Positions 20,326 to 34,217 of a DNA stretch of 36,053 nt are shown here, one piece after another. The translations under genes and the position numbers were made by a program. This stretch comes from a virus, in the IMG/VR virus record IMGVR_UViG_3300026512_000040, positions 1-36,053 of that record. The stretch is one strand, 5' to 3'. Numbering within the stretch: the stretch's first letter is position 1; each line of letters opens with the position of its first letter. The notes under the pieces are model-generated. The model did not search any database, was not told the origin of the DNA, and was given only the letters and a program-made list of their open reading frames with translations.

Positions 20326-20358
20326 AAAATTTACAAATGTTTCCATTCGCATTTTGGA

Positions 20359-20387
20359 ATTATATATTAATCTATATATATTGTCAA
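20359..20387 (-). promoter_or_regulatory. Leftward early promoter (PL-like)
   Basis: On the minus strand TTGACA (20387-20382), a 17-nt spacer, and TATAAT (20364-20359): an exact sigma-70 consensus. Transcription should start near 20352 and run into the CII-like gene and the whole replication/late operon. The 19 nt ATTAAAAACTATTGACAAT around the -35 (20398-20380) are identical to those at the rightward promoter by the CI gene. Confidence 0.8.
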
Positions 20388-20489
20388 TAGTTTTTAATAT
20401 ATAAACTTTATTTTATCTTTAAAATAACTGCCATTTATATTTTGTTTAATAAATATTAAAGTAAAATAAAAAGAAAAGGGGTTGAAAAT

Positions 20490-22132: not shown

Positions 22133-22738
22133 TTATACTATACTCCTCGATACCTTGCCAAATATCCTAAAAGTGCTTTGGTCATCCAAGGATGTGGTGT
22201 AGCTTTCGTAATCTTTGTTTGTGCTTATGATGCGTAAATGTCCATTTTCATTTATCTGTAGGAGTTTTACCATGAGGGTGTTTCTGAAGTTTAGCACATA
22301 GAGCCCCTCTCCTATATACTCTTTGATACTGCTGTCAAAAACTACCCAGCTGTCCGGAAAGAGCAGAGGGATCATACTGTAGCCGTCCACCTGCATGGCA
22401 AAAAGAGCTGTTGGAGGTGTGGTTTTGAAGACGGCTAAGTCTAAAATCAACTCGCCCACTTTTTCCACACTGTCTATCGACTCTACATTTACACCGCCAC
22501 CTGCTCCAACTCTTGGAGATAATTTTGTGACTGATATAGTATTTTTACTATTTACAGGTGTATAAATTAAATCTTTTATTTTAAATCTTACCTTATCATT
22601 GAAACCATTACTATACCAGTTATTCGCTGTTCCCTCTGAATATTTAAGAATTTTAGCCAGTTCTTTAAGGCTACTAATATTTAGTATTTTTTTAGCATCT
22701 TCAAATAACAATTTATCTTCTTTTGTCATTTTTTTCAT
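22133..22738 (-). CDS. CI-like prophage repressor with S24 peptidase domain
   Basis: 201 residues. Residues 10-60 form the HTH (ISSLKELAKILKYSEGTANNWYSNG). The peptidase domain has cleavage site Ala79-Gly80 (RVGAGGG), nucleophile Ser121 (DGYSMIPL) and general base Lys158 (LMVKLL), all intact. So it should be self-cleaved through activated RecA, leading to induction. The gene is divergent from the rightward early genes across a large palindrome, the classical immunity layout. It is the main candidate for keeping lysogeny. Confidence 0.9.
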   Translation of the reverse strand: MKKMTKEDKLLFEDAKKILNISSLKELAKILKYSEGTANNWYSNGFNDKVRFKIKDLIYTPVNSKNTISVTKLSPRVGAGGGVNVESIDSVEKVGELILDLAVFKTTPPTALFAMQVDGYSMIPLLFPDSWVVFDSSIKEYIGEGLYVLNFRNTLMVKLLQINENGHLRIISTNKDYESYTTSLDDQSTFRIFGKVSRSIV

Positions 22739-22766
22739 TTTTCCACCTTAAAACTATTAAAAACTA

Positions 22767-22795
22767 TTGACAATCTATATAAAATACTATATACT
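22767..22795 (+). promoter_or_regulatory. Rightward early promoter (PR-like)
   Basis: TTGACA (22767-22772), 17-nt spacer, TATACT (22790-22795). Start of transcription expected near 22802, inside the palindrome. The same 19-nt box as at the leftward promoter surrounds the -35 (22756-22774). Confidence 0.75.
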
Positions 22796-22841
22796 TTCAT
22801 CATATTTGCATTATCATAATACAAATATAATGAAAGTATAT
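22789..22841. promoter_or_regulatory. 53-bp operator palindrome between CI and early genes
   Basis: Left arm ATATACTTTCATcATATTTG (22789-22808) and right arm CAAATATaATGAAAGTATAT (22822-22841) are complementary at 19 of 20 positions with a 13-nt centre. The left arm contains the -10 of the rightward promoter; by symmetry the right arm puts a TATACT in the leftward direction. Two mirrored repressor sites controlling divergent promoters is the most likely reading. Confidence 0.7.
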
Positions 22842-23139: not shown

Positions 23140-23320
23140 CATTGAGTTAAGTTCTACATGTAAAGCTTAACTGAGTGTGAAAACTCAAAGTTTTTTAATT
23201 TACCCCTCGCTTTCCACGACCAAAGCGAGGCACTTTTGAAGTGATGTCACGATGAACAGAACCCAAGCTAGGGGATGGAAGCTTGAGGAGCTTTTTATAC
23301 CTGCTTATAAAGTAGGCAGA
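23140..23320 (+). ncRNA. Highly structured RNA/leader region upstream of tiny TM peptide
   Basis: Six short hairpins in series on the plus strand: AGTTAAG/CTTAACT; GAGT/ACTC; CCTCGCTTT/AAAGCGAGG with 7-nt loop; CACTT/AAGTG with 3-nt loop; AAGCT/AGCTT followed by TTT; and CTGCTTA/TAGGCAG (one G-U pair). Part of it (23187-23269) is repeated at 32647. It ends at the AAGGAG site of the ORF at 23333. No Rfam family recognised from memory. Confidence 0.45.
23187..23269 (+). repeat. 83-bp structured direct repeat, copy 1
   Basis: Matches 32647-32729 at 82 of 83 positions (C at 23262 against T). It contains the CCTCGCTTT/AAAGCGAGG and CACTT/AAGTG hairpins. Both copies are preceded at some distance by TCTACATGTAAAGC (23152 and 32525). 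The two copies flank the 9.4-kb accessory segment. Confidence 0.85.
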
Positions 23321-28673: not shown

Positions 28674-29351
28674 ATGCAAATCATCACATTTCACGACACA
28701 CAACTACATCTGCAACCAGATGAGCAACACGAGTTTTTACTTACCAATAAAGAGGTGGCTTTAGGATATGGCACCAATATTCAAAATTTAGCACACACAA
28801 AAAATAACAATTCTGACGAACTTATAGAGAACAAACACTGGATACGAAAAACCGTAAAAACAAACGGTGGAAAACAAAAAGTCATACATTGGACAAAAAA
28901 AGGCATAGTGAGACTTGGCTTTTTCATAAAATCACAACAGGCAAAAAAGTTTCGTGACTGGGCGGAAGACTACATCATCTATAAAAAAGCGGACATAAGC
29001 AACCCACACCAAATAGCAGGCTACAAAGGTATGATAACAAAGCAAAAAAACGAAATCAAAAAACTAAAAGAGTTAAACACCTCATACTACGAGCAGATGA
29101 GCGAGGCGAAGATGCAACTGCAAAAGGTAAAAAACTCACTCGGAGTCGATGGAGCTGCATTTAGAAACGAGAGTAGAGACAGAGTGGTTGACCTCTTTTT
29201 GCTCTTTTATAAACAGGCAAACGAGTTTGGGGATTTGGCGGAGCAGATGAAAAACAGAGCCAAACGAAGCAGAGAGTTTCTAAACTCCTTAGAAAAGTTC
29301 CTAAACATAAACGCAGACAAATACAAAAACAGCCCGGGACCACTAGGGTAA
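28674..29351 (+). CDS. BRO/ANT-type phage antirepressor
   Basis: 225 residues. N-terminal BRO-like domain: HEFLLTNKEVALGYGTNIQN, GGKQKVIHWTKKGIVRLGFF, then SQQAKKFRDWAEDYII at about 88-103. The middle is a coiled coil (MITKQKNEIKKLKELN ... MQLQKVKNSLGV), and the C-terminal domain is helical. Proteins of this type bind and inactivate repressors. AGGAGG upstream. Its last residues overlap, on the opposite strand, a fragment of the integrase 3' end. Confidence 0.75.
   Translation: MQIITFHDTQLHLQPDEQHEFLLTNKEVALGYGTNIQNLAHTKNNNSDELIENKHWIRKTVKTNGGKQKVIHWTKKGIVRLGFFIKSQQAKKFRDWAEDYIIYKKADISNPHQIAGYKGMITKQKNEIKKLKELNTSYYEQMSEAKMQLQKVKNSLGVDGAAFRNESRDRVVDLFLLFYKQANEFGDLAEQMKNRAKRSREFLNSLEKFLNINADKYKNSPGPLG
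29007..29160 (+). repeat. 154-bp direct repeat, copy 1 (in antirepressor)
   Basis: Matches 29525-29678 at 152 of 154 positions. It encodes the coiled-coil part HQIAGYKGMITKQKNEIKKL to SLGVDGAA. The copy 2 differences are C to T in GCTAC/GTTAC and A to G in the KKL/KRL codon. Confidence 0.9.
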
Positions 29352-29437
29352 AACTGTGGCGGGACAAAGCGAGTGGAGAAAAGCACTCCACCACTGCATC
29401 AGCTCTATTCTCTCCGTGATATGCTCTGCTTTTTTAT
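29343..29437 (-). pseudogene. Integrase 3'-end fragment
   Basis: On the minus strand encodes AEHITERIELMQWWSAFLHS then LCPATVLP-stop, the last 30 residues of the integrase at 33018, with one change (F to L near the end). The direct repeat of which it is part spans 29313-29437 against 32989-33112, nearly identical after the antirepressor tail. It marks a duplicated junction of antirepressor end and integrase end. Confidence 0.85.
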
Positions 29438-29680
29438 CAAAAGCACTTTCGCAAATGGGCTTCTAAGCTGATAACAGAGATGAAAAAACAGTACAAAACC
29501 CCTCAAATACCACTATCCAACAATCACCAAATAGCAGGTTACAAAGGTATGATAACAAAGCAAAAAAACGAAATCAAAAGACTAAAAGAGTTAAACACCT
29601 CATACTACGAGCAGATGAGCGAGGCGAAGATGCAACTGCAAAAGGTAAAAAACTCACTCGGAGTCGATGGAGCTGCATAG
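29434..29680 (+). pseudogene. Remnant of a second BRO-type antirepressor
   Basis: Begins with FIKS, then after a frameshift FRKWASKLITEMKKQYKTPQ, which aligns with FIKSQQAKKFRDWAEDYI of the intact gene, then a 154-bp nearly identical coiled-coil region (29525-29678), then an immediate TAG. Both the N-terminal domain and the C-terminal domain are missing. An ATG at 29480 could still give a 66-residue fragment, which might interfere with the full protein through the coiled coil. Confidence 0.75.
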
Positions 29681-29690
29681 AGCTTAAATA

Positions 29691-29729
29691 AGTACTTTAT
29701 GTACTACTTTATATGATACAATATGTACT
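29691..29729. promoter_or_regulatory. Operator pair for second repressor (left side of cargo)
   Basis: AGTACTTTATGTACT (29691-29705) and GATACAATATGTACT (29715-29729), 24 bp apart. Both fit AGTACA-N3-TGTACT, and the same motif occurs at 32564 and 32599. A weak -10 TATGAT (29712-29717) lies between or within them. Position directly before the repressor gene suggests autoregulation. Confidence 0.65.
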
Positions 29730-29742
29730 TTTAGGAGGAGTT

Positions 29743-30411
29743 ATGCATTTTGCAAAAACTTTTAACTCGGTAATGAAAAGTCTAAACATAACAAACAAGC
29801 AATTATCCGAGATATTAAAAACACAATACAACTATCAAATAAGCAAAGAGAGTATTGGCAAATATAGACAAGGAGCTAGAACTCCAAATCCTACTTTTAT
29901 AGAATTATCTGCTAAAGTTCTTAATATTTCAACCGATTATCTACTAGGTGTGCAAAATAAAGAATATTTTATTAAAAAAATACCTATTATAGGCACGGCA
30001 TCTTGTGGCAGAGCTGATAGAAACCATTTTCAAGACACCAGTGCATTCACTCTATATAATGGAGAAAACTATAAACATAATCTATATTGCGTCATCGCAA
30101 ATGGGGACAGTATGGCACCAGAGATAGAAGACGGTGACGAGGTTATATGCGACCCTACCGCGGAAGTGCAAAACGGAGATATCGTTCACTATAAGCTTTT
30201 GGGAGAGAGTGCTATAAAGGTGTATTATAGAGATGAAGATGCCTTTATCGTACAGTTTATACCATACAATCCAAATCAAAACTTCAAAACCAAAACCATA
30301 AGACTAGATGAAGAGCTAGCAAATGAGCTGGAGATATCCAAAGTAGTAGCAGTAAATAAACTAAAATTTAACAACAGACTAAGCAGACTAAAGCTGATAG
30401 GAAAGGCATAG
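29743..30411 (+). CDS. Second LexA/CI-like repressor with S24 peptidase domain
   Basis: 222 residues from ATG 29743 (AGGAGG 29733-29738; the longer frame starts inside an operator). HTH at about 1-65: MKSLNITNKQLSEILK ... YRQGARTPNPTFIELS. Linker, then cleavage site Cys88-Gly89 (IGTASCGR), Ser123 (NGDSMAPE) and Lys159 (SAIKVYYR), all present. One nucleotide separates it from the kinase gene, so the two are co-translated. It probably stands where HipB stands in HipBA, but with RecA-dependent inactivation. Confidence 0.85.
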   Translation: MHFAKTFNSVMKSLNITNKQLSEILKTQYNYQISKESIGKYRQGARTPNPTFIELSAKVLNISTDYLLGVQNKEYFIKKIPIIGTASCGRADRNHFQDTSAFTLYNGENYKHNLYCVIANGDSMAPEIEDGDEVICDPTAEVQNGDIVHYKLLGESAIKVYYRDEDAFIVQFIPYNPNQNFKTKTIRLDEELANELEISKVVAVNKLKFNNRLSRLKLIGKA

Positions 30412-30412
30412 T

Positions 30413-31195
30413 ATGGATATCTTAAGGATAAAAAGAGTTTTAGGACAACCTGATTTTGGAGGATGCAAGCCTGTATGGATTAGGGCGGATGACGGAGTTG
30501 AGTATCTATTAAAATTTCGATACGACGGCAACGAGATGGATATATCAAATTTCAACGAATACTTATCTTATAGAATCACAGATATGCTAAATTACAAGAT
30601 ATCCCCTCAAGGTATCAAGTTTATAACTATACATAGTGATGATATCATCCTTTTTGAAAATGCAAAGGTAGATATAGAGTCTGTTGAATTTGCAAAAAAA
30701 TCTTTAGGTACAAATCTTGGCATACAGAAGATACCTTTTGCACAAAAAGCAGAGAGCGTAACAAACAGTACCTTTAAGAAGCAGGTGGCAAACATAGACA
30801 ATTATGTACTGAATTCGGATAGAAATAAAGAGAATCCAAATCTTTTATTTAACAAACAAAACAGTAAATATTATGCCATAGACTACGGATTGGCTTTGTT
30901 GTCTCATAGAGTATATGAGAAGATAAAAGATGGTGACGATATCGGGCAGTATGTGATGCAACTACAAAACTGCAATGTCACGGAAGATATGTTTTATGTA
31001 TTTAAAAATCAAAAAAAAATCCAGATAAAAAGTGAATTTAAAGAAGTTTTAGATAAGATTTTAGCTATAATAGATGAGTGTCCGAGTGAGTGGGAACCAA
31101 CAAAATATAGAGAACAGATAGCAGAGATAGTTGCATTTAGAATGCTAAACAGAAGATTGTTTGATAAACATAAATGTCCAAGTGAGTTATACTAA
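30413..31195 (+). CDS. HipA-family Ser/Thr kinase (HipA_2 type)
   Basis: 260 residues. Lys34 in EYLLKFRYD, following GGCKPVWIRADDG, is the ATP-anchoring lysine. The catalytic loop is NSDRNKENPNLL with Asp136 and Asn141, and the metal-binding motif is AIDYG with Asp157. This is the compact HipA-like fold (PF20613) without the N-terminal HipA-N1 domain. All catalytic residues appear intact. The substrate is unknown; HipA itself phosphorylates GltX. Overlaps none, but its stop is 1 nt from the next ATG. Confidence 0.8.
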   Translation: MDILRIKRVLGQPDFGGCKPVWIRADDGVEYLLKFRYDGNEMDISNFNEYLSYRITDMLNYKISPQGIKFITIHSDDIILFENAKVDIESVEFAKKSLGTNLGIQKIPFAQKAESVTNSTFKKQVANIDNYVLNSDRNKENPNLLFNKQNSKYYAIDYGLALLSHRVYEKIKDGDDIGQYVMQLQNCNVTEDMFYVFKNQKKIQIKSEFKEVLDKILAIIDECPSEWEPTKYREQIAEIVAFRMLNRRLFDKHKCPSELY

Positions 31196-31196
31196 A

Positions 31197-31940
31197 ATGA
31201 AAAATATAATGAATTATGAAATCATACACTACTACCCTAACAAAACTACACTAGAGTTTATAAACATAGGAGTTATAGGGTACAGTTCTAATTTTTTCTC
31301 TTTTAGACTACTCGATGAAGAGATAGAGCATCTTAACTGTTCATTTATAAATATAAAAGCACTGATGGGGACTGTAGAGCTTTTAAAATCAAAACTACAA
31401 AACTGTAAAGGCATAAAAGAGCTAGCAAGAAGCGATATGTACTTTGATGATTTTGGATTTAGCAAGACTATGCTAACTAAAGTATATGGGGATTATCAAA
31501 AAGAGTTGGACTCTGTATATGGGGATTTTATATCTTATAAGTTTGAAAAACCAAAGATTGTCCACGATAGAAGAGAAGAGATAAAACTTCTCTCAAAAGA
31601 GATAATCAAAAAAGAGTTTAAGGGCTCCGTATCTTTTATGGAAAATCCATATTTTGATTTTGTATTGAACATAAAAGATGGAAAAAAAATCAAACAGTAT
31701 CCGACTATAATAGGAAGTCTATTTAACAGTGCAGATACTTCAAGAGCACTAAGACTACTGATAGAAACAGATATAACAAAAGGTATATACGGATATATAA
31801 ATCATACCGAAGAGATCATAAGACACTCAAAAGTGGCTAAAAAAACTCTGTCTATCCTAGAAGAAAAGCTAAACTTTAATGCCAAGAACTTCAGTAATGA
31901 AAACACTATCATAGACTCCATAGCTACTCTAGCAGCATAA
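31197..31940 (+). CDS. DUF3037 protein, partner of the kinase
   Basis: 247 residues from ATG 31197 (ATG 31209 also possible). The N-terminal block MNYEIIHYYPNKTTLEFINI then GVIGYSSNFFSFRLLDEEIE matches DUF3037 ('Y-v-r--P----E-vNvGVvl'). The C-terminal part has FKGSVSFMENPYFDFVLNI and HSKVAKKTLSILEEKL. I recall DUF3037 genes adjacent to HipA_2 kinases in many bacteria; the role is not established. It could be the antitoxin, a substrate or an effector. Confidence 0.75.
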   Translation: MKNIMNYEIIHYYPNKTTLEFINIGVIGYSSNFFSFRLLDEEIEHLNCSFINIKALMGTVELLKSKLQNCKGIKELARSDMYFDDFGFSKTMLTKVYGDYQKELDSVYGDFISYKFEKPKIVHDRREEIKLLSKEIIKKEFKGSVSFMENPYFDFVLNIKDGKKIKQYPTIIGSLFNSADTSRALRLLIETDITKGIYGYINHTEEIIRHSKVAKKTLSILEEKLNFNAKNFSNENTIIDSIATLAA

Positions 31941-31973
31941 TACATACTCTAATATATTTGTTTTTATCTAACT

Positions 31974-32471
31974 CTAGTTAAAGATATCGTTTATTTTTTT
32001 TATTTTTGCTTCAGCTGTGTTTTTTATATTTTCCAACTGTTTTGCGAAGTTTATTATCTCTTTTTTACCATCTAACCTAAATGAACCATCCTCTACTGCC
32101 AAATTGTCAGAAGTGCCGTGAATAGTAACAGATATAGAGCTTCCTTTTTTGGACGAACTAAACTCTACACCAAGACCTCTTGTGGTAATCGGTATGGTTT
32201 TTTTAAAATCCATCTTGGCACTTTTTGCCTTGTCTGCCCAAATAGATGTTTTACGAAGTTTAGCTATCAATCTTGCTAGTTCCTCTTGAGAAATAGCATC
32301 AGAATACCTTTGTATAAAAAGCATATTATTGTTTAAGGTAAGGGAATATTTTTTATCATCACAATAGTTCATCTTAAATATTCTACCAATACCATCTTTT
32401 TGCTTTAGCATATTTGTACATGTTGCAAACATACCTGAACACATAATTATAAGAAACACGAAAGCTTTCAT
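31974..32471 (-). CDS. Secreted protein of unknown function
   Basis: 165 residues from ATG 32471 (AAAGGA upstream). A signal peptide MKAFVFLIIMCSGMFATC with probable cleavage near residues 16-18; Cys18 could make it a lipoprotein, but the lipobox is poor. The mature part is beta-rich (YSLTLNNNMLFIQRYSD, GLGVEFSSSKKGSSISVTIHG) with a helical C-terminus. Transcribed against the kinase operon from a promoter carrying the same operator motif. Probably a lysogenic conversion or exclusion factor in the periplasm. Confidence 0.65.
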   Translation of the reverse strand: MKAFVFLIIMCSGMFATCTNMLKQKDGIGRIFKMNYCDDKKYSLTLNNNMLFIQRYSDAISQEELARLIAKLRKTSIWADKAKSAKMDFKKTIPITTRGLGVEFSSSKKGSSISVTIHGTSDNLAVEDGSFRLDGKKEIINFAKQLENIKNTAEAKIKKINDIFN

Positions 32472-32558
32472 AAATATCCTTTTTAAAATTATAGCGTACT
32501 TAAAATTTAGCATACTTAAACAACCTCTACATGTAAAGCAAAAATAAAGATATTTTAG

Positions 32559-32613
32559 ATTATAGTACAATATGTACCTTTTTTAAGCTTATTTTAAAAG
32601 TACACATTGTACT
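32559..32613 (-). promoter_or_regulatory. Promoter and operator pair for the secreted protein
   Basis: Minus-strand TATAAT (32564-32559) with a poor -35. AGTACAATATGTACC (32564-32578) overlaps it, and AGTACACATTGTACT (32599-32613) is a perfect AGTACA-N3-TGTACT palindrome upstream. The motif matches the sites in front of the second repressor, so this promoter is probably under the same control. The leader to the ATG at 32471 is about 80 nt and includes TCTACATGTAAAGC. Confidence 0.65.
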
Positions 32614-32646
32614 ATTTCATCATAGCTTATAAAACATAAGCCATAA

Positions 32647-32729
32647 AAAGTTTTTTAATTTACCCCTCGCTTTCCACGACCAAAGCGAGGCACTTTTGAA
32701 GTGATGTCACGATGAACAGAATCCAAGCT
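32647..32729 (+). repeat. 83-bp structured direct repeat, copy 2
   Basis: 82 of 83 positions identical to 23187-23269. The hairpins are kept, but the sequence after position 32729 is a dUTPase remnant and not the terminator and tiny ORF found after copy 1. Confidence 0.85.
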
Positions 32730-32977
32730 CAGATTGTATAGCGTCTTATAGTAAAGGATGGAATGATGCTCTAACTAAAAGAGAGGATGTTACAAATAGG
32801 GCAACATCTATGAGTAAACAACTGCAAAATTTAAAAGATACAATTGAAACGGGTAAATTTCAAATCAAAAAAGGCGACAAAATAGCTCAAATAACACTAT
32901 TAGAACACAAATCATATCTATTTGGTATAGACACCAAAGAAGAACCTAAAGGTGGATTTGGGAATACAGGGATATAA
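32729..32977 (+). pseudogene. C-terminal remnant of a dUTPase-like gene
   Basis: Open frame without a start, ending at TAA 32975-32977. It encodes KFQIKKGDKIAQITLLEHKS then YLFGIDTKEEPKGGFGNTGI: the 'GD-IAQ' strand motif and the C-terminal 'GGFG-TG' motif of dUTP pyrophosphatases. The N-terminal motifs are missing; the 5' break coincides with the end of the 83-bp repeat. An internal ATG (32810) could give a 55-residue piece without activity. Confidence 0.65.
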
Positions 32978-32988
32978 AACAGCGAGAT

Positions 32989-33021
32989 GCAGACAAATAC
33001 AAAAACAACCTAGGACACTAG
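32989..33021 (+). pseudogene. Antirepressor C-terminal fragment
   Basis: GCA to TAG codes ADKYKNNLGH-stop, matching ADKYKNSPGPLG at the end of the intact antirepressor. It abuts and overlaps the 3' end of the intact integrase on the other strand, as in the first copy at 29313. Direct repeat partner: 32989-33112. Confidence 0.7.
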
Positions 33022-34217
33022 GGAAAAACTGTGGCGGGACAAAGCGAGTGGAGAAAAGCACTCCACCACTGCATCAGCTCTATTCTCTCCGTGATATGCT
33101 CTGCTTTGTTATATACTCCAGCCGTTCCGCCCTCTACATGTGCGAGTTGTCTCTCTATGGCATCTGATATGATACCGTGGATATAGATATTTTCGTGAAG
33201 GATAGTGGAAGCGGTATGTCTAAAGCCGTGGGCAGTCTGTTTGCCCTTATATCCAAGTCGTTCTAAAGCTCTGTTCATCGTGGCATCACTCATTATCTTA
33301 CCCCGGGGTGTTTTAAAGACATACTCTTCGGTATGATTTATCTCTTTTGCTTTTTTCAATATCTCTATGACCTCTTTTGAGAGAGGCACTAGGTGCGCTC
33401 GTCTGGTTTTCATCTTTTCAAGCTCAATTGTTATCATCTTTTTTTTGAAGTCTATCTCATCCCAGCGTAAAAATCTAACATTGTATGGGCGTAAAAATGT
33501 GTGAGCGCTAAAAAGCAAAGCTAACTTGACTATCGGCGTGATGTCAGAGCGAACTATATCACACAATAAACGCTTTAATTTTTGAGGACTTGTAGTGTGT
33601 GCAAAGTTTTTAGAAGCCACTTGGGGGATGATAGCGAGTCTGTCAACATCATTTGGAACATTGTGTTCTACATATCCAAGAGCTAGAGAGTACCGCCAAA
33701 TCCTTTTGCAGAGATTGTGTGCAAGTTTTACAGTATGGTTTACGCCTCGACTGTTTATATCCATCAAAAAATTAGCTATATCAAATCGGTCTATATCTCG
33801 TATATCCCTCTCTCCAAAATATCGCAAGATATCTCTATCTATCACACCACAATTTCGCTTATAAGTGCTAGGAGCCAAATCACTTTTCATAAATGTCTTA
33901 AAACCGGGTACTATATCTTTTATCTTTTTTATGTTATCATCTCGTTTTAGTTTGGGATCTACTCCCTCGAAGAGTTGTTTTTGCAAATCAAACCGCTTTT
34001 CTCTGGCTTTAGCGAGAGACAAGATAGGATATTTACCTAAAGTAATCTTTTGGTATTTTTTTGTCATAGGTGATTTGTATCTAAACTCAAACACCTTAGA
34101 GCCTGATTTTTTAACAGTGAGTTGAAGCCCACCACCATCATAGATACAAAACTCTTTATCTTTTGGCTTCAAACTCTTAATCTGCATGTTACTTATACCC
34201 TTAACAATTCTAGACAT
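33018..34217 (-). CDS. int: Tyrosine-recombinase integrase, P4 type
   Basis: 399 residues from ATG 34217, where AAAAAGGGTTGGAT precedes it. N-terminal DUF4102 domain (KEFCIYDGGGLQLTVKKSGSK, ITLGKYPILSLAKAREKR), then a core-binding SAM-like domain, then the catalytic domain with Arg243 (TFLRPYNVR), the Lys in KMKTRRAHLVPLS, His330-x-x-Arg333 (HGFRHTAS), His360 (LAHVEG) and nucleophile Tyr369 (AGVYNKAEH). It should recombine at the tRNA-derived site 150 nt upstream of its start. Confidence 0.95.
   Translation of the reverse strand: MSRIVKGISNMQIKSLKPKDKEFCIYDGGGLQLTVKKSGSKVFEFRYKSPMTKKYQKITLGKYPILSLAKAREKRFDLQKQLFEGVDPKLKRDDNIKKIKDIVPGFKTFMKSDLAPSTYKRNCGVIDRDILRYFGERDIRDIDRFDIANFLMDINSRGVNHTVKLAHNLCKRIWRYSLALGYVEHNVPNDVDRLAIIPQVASKNFAHTTSPQKLKRLLCDIVRSDITPIVKLALLFSAHTFLRPYNVRFLRWDEIDFKKKMITIELEKMKTRRAHLVPLSKEVIEILKKAKEINHTEEYVFKTPRGKIMSDATMNRALERLGYKGKQTAHGFRHTASTILHENIYIHGIISDAIERQLAHVEGGTAGVYNKAEHITERIELMQWWSAFLHSLCPATVFP

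Follow-up and report, generated by a model that had tools for sequence, protein, structure and literature searches.

A HipA_2-DUF3037 pair behind a CI-type repressor as probable lysogenic defense cargo in the manner of cI-rexAB

The sequence analyzed here, called the window throughout, is the whole 36,053-nucleotide stretch of IMG/VR virus record IMGVR_UViG_3300026512_000040. It carries three genes on the plus strand that lie 1 nt apart at each junction, a spacing described in the first-pass annotation and confirmed by the ORF coordinates. The first gene (29743 to 30411) encodes a CI/LexA-type repressor (S24/CI), as indicated by its ORF, family search and motifs; we favored the ATG at 29743 over the earliest one in the frame (29713) because of the AGGAGG at 29734. 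In Pfam, the protein matched Peptidase_S24 with 58 bits and HTH_3 with 21.8 bits, the latter 1.2 bits below the cut-off, and the Cys88-Gly89 cleavage site and the Ser123/Lys159 dyad are both present, as had been proposed. The second gene (ATG at 30413, stop at 31195) encodes a compact kinase of 260 aa, assigned by ORF, motifs and family search to HipA_2 (PF20613, 59.2 bits), to the HipAD kinase PDC-M66A of PADLOC (1.5e-6) and to PHROG phrog_3162 (1.4e-27). Its Lys34, Asp136, Asn141 and Asp157, earlier read as intact, are invariant in an alignment with nine homologues. The third gene (ATG at 31197, stop at 31940) encodes a DUF3037 protein, presumed to be an antitoxin from published work (PMC12548924). 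Its Pfam score (22.4 bits versus a cut-off of 22.6) would be borderline alone, but the assignment is backed by PDC-M66B (3.1e-5), phrog_5137 (8e-8) and the alignment; no Pfam match to DUF1829 was found in this protein. Structure predictions with five sequences per protein reached pLDDT values of 51.8 (kinase) and 37.9 (DUF3037), too poor for any structural claim. The fold search with the kinase gave no match at an E value of <0.001, only weak kinase-like ones, and PDB sequence searches gave no relative of either the kinase or the DUF3037 protein. Among the viral contigs, a single-sequence search found no close relatives of P0002, and scans with the DUF3037 profile and with P0005 gave no match.

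Four putative operators flank this block. O1 (AGTACTTTATGTACT, 29691 to 29705) and O2 (GATACAATATGTACT, 29715 to 29729) precede the repressor gene and have one and two mismatches to AGTACANNNTGTACT, respectively, while O3 (AGTACAATATGTACC, 32564 to 32578) and O4 (AGTACACATTGTACT, 32599 to 32613), the latter a perfect palindrome, match it at the other end. O2 adjoins a TATGAT -10-like hexamer ahead of the repressor, followed by the AGGAGG, and O3 adjoins the TATAAT -10 of a leftward promoter belonging to a gene on the minus strand (31974 to 32471), whose product has a signal-peptide-like N-terminus and no Pfam or PADLOC match, with only a weak match in PHROG. The first-pass annotation had placed operators of one type at both ends of the block, and this held: palindromes of the form AGTACAnnnTGTACT make two close pairs, one per block end, with no pairs elsewhere in the window. 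Allowing up to two mismatches, AGTACANNNTGTACT occurred six times in the window versus 1.98 expected, four of the six falling in the two close pairs, and no close pair was found in 100 simulated windows. The two palindrome pairs, together with the adjoining -10 elements of both units, suggest that a single repressor probably controls both the cargo operon and the divergent gene. A scan of the viral contigs for operator pairs returned many repeat arrays and few matches close to S24 genes; similar GTACAnnnTGTAC pairs were found near S24 genes in unrelated contigs. In several phages, secreted nucleases (thermonuclease- or Dns-like) are encoded after or near the kinase-DUF3037 pair (L018:295-723, L212:290-733, L004:5483-6136 and L002:4151-4582); the window has a different secreted protein instead.

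Both edges of the block carry repeated sequence. On the left there is a fragment of a second antirepressor copy (29525 to 29678, plus strand; 98.7% identical to 29007-29160), and on the right a repeat of the antirepressor 3' end and the integrase 3' end (32989 to 33112; 95.2% identical to 29313-29437). The simplest reading is that, between the antirepressor and the integrase, the middle part of a second copy of the antirepressor was exchanged for the block 29679-32988. The cargo unit of the window looks transplanted, and we infer that it originated as a cI-cargo segment of another prophage. Self-comparison also found an 83-bp repeat (23187-23269 and 32647-32729, 98.8% identical), which holds the hairpin CCTCGCTTT-ccacgacc-AAAGCGAGG.

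Relatives of the repressor with 45 to 60% identity are encoded in six viral contigs, where they are typical CIs, mostly accompanied by a small divergent cro-type gene and in several cases by cII-like and DnaB-like genes beyond (labels given from sequence appearance and gene order). The cargo behind the CI is different in each of these contigs, for example, an HSDR_N protein in L039. In the window, no divergent cro-type gene was found beside 29743, and the cargo unit lies away from cII-dnaB rather than at the lytic switch. A second S24 protein, the CI encoded at 22133-22738, is present, and a 45-bp inverted repeat (20355-20399 and 22755-22799, 87%), which is a probable shared operator/promoter, is common to its promoter region and to that of the CII-like gene (20326). 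This CI is a likelier lytic-switch repressor than the product of 29743-30411, and the operators of the two differ. The terminase of the window gave distant matches. Another record, PV052265.1, although classed as Rountreeviridae, has genes for an integrase and a CI repressor.

The kinase and DUF3037 genes correspond, by family, catalytic residues and adjacency, to a known defense pair, named PDC-M66 in PADLOC, DS-6 or HipAD. DS-6 has been renamed HipAD and needs a catalytic residue of its kinase (PMC13092281), and a reference title in the same paper reports HipAD from E. coli prophages. As in these systems, a HipA_2-like kinase is followed by a DUF3037 protein, without HipB; in contrast to them, the pair in the window shares an operon with the S24 repressor that precedes it, and DS-6B adds a DUF1829 domain. 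The same pair forms part of Retron-Sda1, where deletion of the kinase led to loss of defense against Bas51, which was unchanged without the HTH gene, the ncRNA or an active RT, and where deletion of DUF3037 was toxic, from which the authors concluded that DUF3037 neutralizes the kinase (PMC12548924). There the pair defends alone, embedded in a retron operon, and an S24 repressor is not mentioned. These phenotypes make it very likely that the antitoxin role is filled by DUF3037 and not by the repressor, so that the earlier suggestion of a repressor standing in for a missing HipB gives way to the third gene of the operon. With HipBA and HipBST, the likeness lies in the Pfam family name of the kinase and its catalytic residues; the window has neither HipB nor HipS, its kinase is compact and its partner different, and the upstream HTH protein is of the S24/CI type, with repressors that exchange freely (see below). 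The HipA phylogeny published in mBio in 2021 makes no mention of DUF3037 or S24.

S24 repressor genes immediately precede the pair in Campylobacter prophages, mostly with a 4-nt overlap. Kinases that are 94 to 100% identical follow repressors with four unrelated N-terminal DNA-binding domains (18 to 32% identity), and a further N-terminal type accompanies the kinases of L007 and L036 (84 to 87% identical). The C-terminal domain of the repressor is common to most Campylobacter cases; hence, L012 alone, where this domain is also unrelated (26%) and a 30-nt gap precedes the kinase, argues fully against contact between repressor and kinase. We also surveyed 56 loci with related Campylobacter repressors (L051-L106), of which 48 were readable, with at least 1.5 kb behind the repressor. 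The pair followed the repressor in 7 of these 48 and other cargo in the remaining 41, amounting to 33 cargo architectures and 16 first-gene clusters; since the set comes from one repressor query, with related immunity types only and many near-identical strains, the counts show exchange and not population frequencies. This cargo includes PDC-M24A/B, a PDC-M29A-like ATPase, SocA_Panacea and HATPase proteins, often with a secreted nuclease next, as well as uncharacterized proteins of 351, 306, 298 and 430 aa. The slot directly behind CI is therefore an exchange site for defense cargo in Campylobacterota prophages.

The trio is conserved elsewhere: according to the survey of neighborhoods, Campylobacter phages and genomes have it, as do prophages L045/L018 and L221/L212, while the pair also occurs without S24. 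The kinase profile was matched by 12 of 397 Campylobacterota genomes, in ten of them across most of its length, and G403 was added by family search. An intact or near-intact S24 gene lies directly upstream of the pair in G001, G193, G074 and G403, and in the last three, which have enough flanking sequence, the pair is found among phage-type genes. In G171 (L046:9684-10130; L046/L019), an internal deletion removes the catalytic Ser of the repressor, while the kinase and DUF3037 genes are intact and no phage genes are nearby; this unit is possibly domesticated, and the remnant shows that the pair can be retained even behind a repressor that looks uncleavable. No S24 gene lies directly upstream in G015, G210, G139, G385, G202 and G148, several of which adjoin type I restriction genes (G148 is listed with a DUF3037 frame that is not intact), and the same holds for L038. 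The pair occurs by itself, without S24, in two plasmid records from Bacteroidota, and in Sulfurimonas phage SNW-1 it stands behind a small HTH gene and one further gene; the SNW-1 kinase (OP810509.1, 35267-36049) is annotated as an "aminotransferase." The Bacteroidota DUF3037 partners have 127 aa, which, together with the Campylobacterota proteins, suggests that DUF1829 is not a defining feature of HipAD. The DUF3037 protein is shortened or altered at its C-terminus next to an intact kinase in L008:5764-6303, L007:3179-3706 and L003:6764-7117; given the 127-aa Bacteroidota partners, its N-terminal part may be sufficient for the antitoxin role, or else some of the short forms may be sequencing errors. 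In L037:3618-4366, the kinase gene is frameshifted into two frames behind an intact repressor.

Several explanations of the operon have to be weighed against this distribution. An HTH protein 1 nt upstream of a HipA-like kinase invites the idea of a HipB-like antitoxin that binds the kinase and frees it upon cleavage, as the first-pass annotation had it, but near-identical kinases behind unrelated repressors, the 41 of 48 related repressors that lack the kinase, the pairs without S24 and the toxic DUF3037 deletion (PMC12548924) all speak against it, and we regard it as highly improbable. It is also rather improbable, though far less so, that the extra CI serves as a second immunity, repressing incoming phages with the same operators while the kinase and DUF3037 are merely passengers. 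The lytic-switch CIs among its relatives, operators unlike those of the CI at 22133-22738 and the GTACAnnnTGTAC pairs near S24 genes in unrelated contigs would fit, but the catalytic residues of the kinase are conserved, the pair is found repeatedly as cargo of unrelated prophages, and no phage turned up that combines this repressor with matching operators.

With the cleavage site and the dyad both intact, SOS control is possible, and SOS-dependent derepression of the operon is plausible from its sequence. A reading in which RecA-driven cleavage of the S24 repressor, upon damage to DNA or infection by a phage, lets the kinase outrun DUF3037 and arrest the cell draws further on the paired putative operators at the promoter, the position of the kinase gene ahead of DUF3037 and the recurrent S24 association in prophages. 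We nevertheless consider it unlikely, as toxin and antitoxin share one transcript, the L046/L019 repressor shows that cleavability is dispensable there, and Campylobacterota islands carry the pair with no S24 gene. Since kinase and DUF3037 are cotranscribed, derepression alone would raise both, and a net release of kinase would need differential stability or translation of the two. A little more doubtful still is a DNA-damage-gated HipAD, in which a self-cleaving CI-type repressor that has its own operators and lies off the lytic switch would tie both the kinase pair and the secreted protein to SOS, so that induction of a competing prophage or phage DNA damage would arm abortive infection.

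The reading that we prefer, and hold to be probable, is that the block is a HipAD-type toxin-antitoxin defense pair that the lysogen carries as cargo behind a CI-type repressor, much as in cI-rexAB. In lambda cI-rexAB, defense genes lie behind the prophage CI-type repressor and have a common promoter with it. The position downstream of cI is known as a defense and mosaic site from the bstA paper, and in P. putida, the RexABpp defense genes likewise follow a CI-type repressor. In all three cases (lambda cI-rexAB, BTP1 cI-bstA and RexABpp), the promoter of the repressor is shared, although their effectors are unrelated to the present ones and the CI unit of the window is separate from the lytic switch. 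The exchange of repressors and cargo, together with pairs lacking S24, points to such an arrangement, with the cargo sharing the promoter of the prophage repressor. In the window itself, CI and cargo are adjacent, but the unit is off cII-dnaB and the phage has a second CI; the lytic-switch arrangement is seen in the relatives, so the analogy with rexAB rests on them. The first-pass annotation's view of one regulated cargo module with a likely exclusion or abortive-infection function is thus supported, but not its proposal of a new kind of system, as both the pair and the placement of defense genes behind cI are known. It had overlooked that the pair is a named defense system, that the phage encodes another S24 repressor (22133-22738) and that duplicated antirepressor sequence borders the block.

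According to the cI-rexAB-like model, the repressor would bind O1/O2 at its own promoter and O3/O4 at that of the divergent gene, and would set the level at which its own gene and those of the kinase and DUF3037 are transcribed. In the lysogen, the kinase would be kept inactive by DUF3037 until infection by another phage upset their balance through some trigger; the kinase would then phosphorylate some target, and the infection would abort. RecA cleavage of the repressor during SOS would derepress the operon and raise both kinase and antitoxin, which by itself would not amount to toxin release, contrary to the earlier suggestion that cleavage frees the kinase.

What is new, as far as the literature consulted shows, is the recurring S24-HipA_2-DUF3037 operon, the exchange that it shows in Campylobacterota prophages, and a copy that has its own putative operators and has moved off the lytic switch. 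A recently validated defense pair, HipAD, is thereby placed in the classical rex position. The natural swaps of repressors amount to a natural experiment that separates the role of the repressor from that of DUF3037, and the exchange slot downstream of CI offers a simple rule for finding new defense genes in Campylobacterota prophages.
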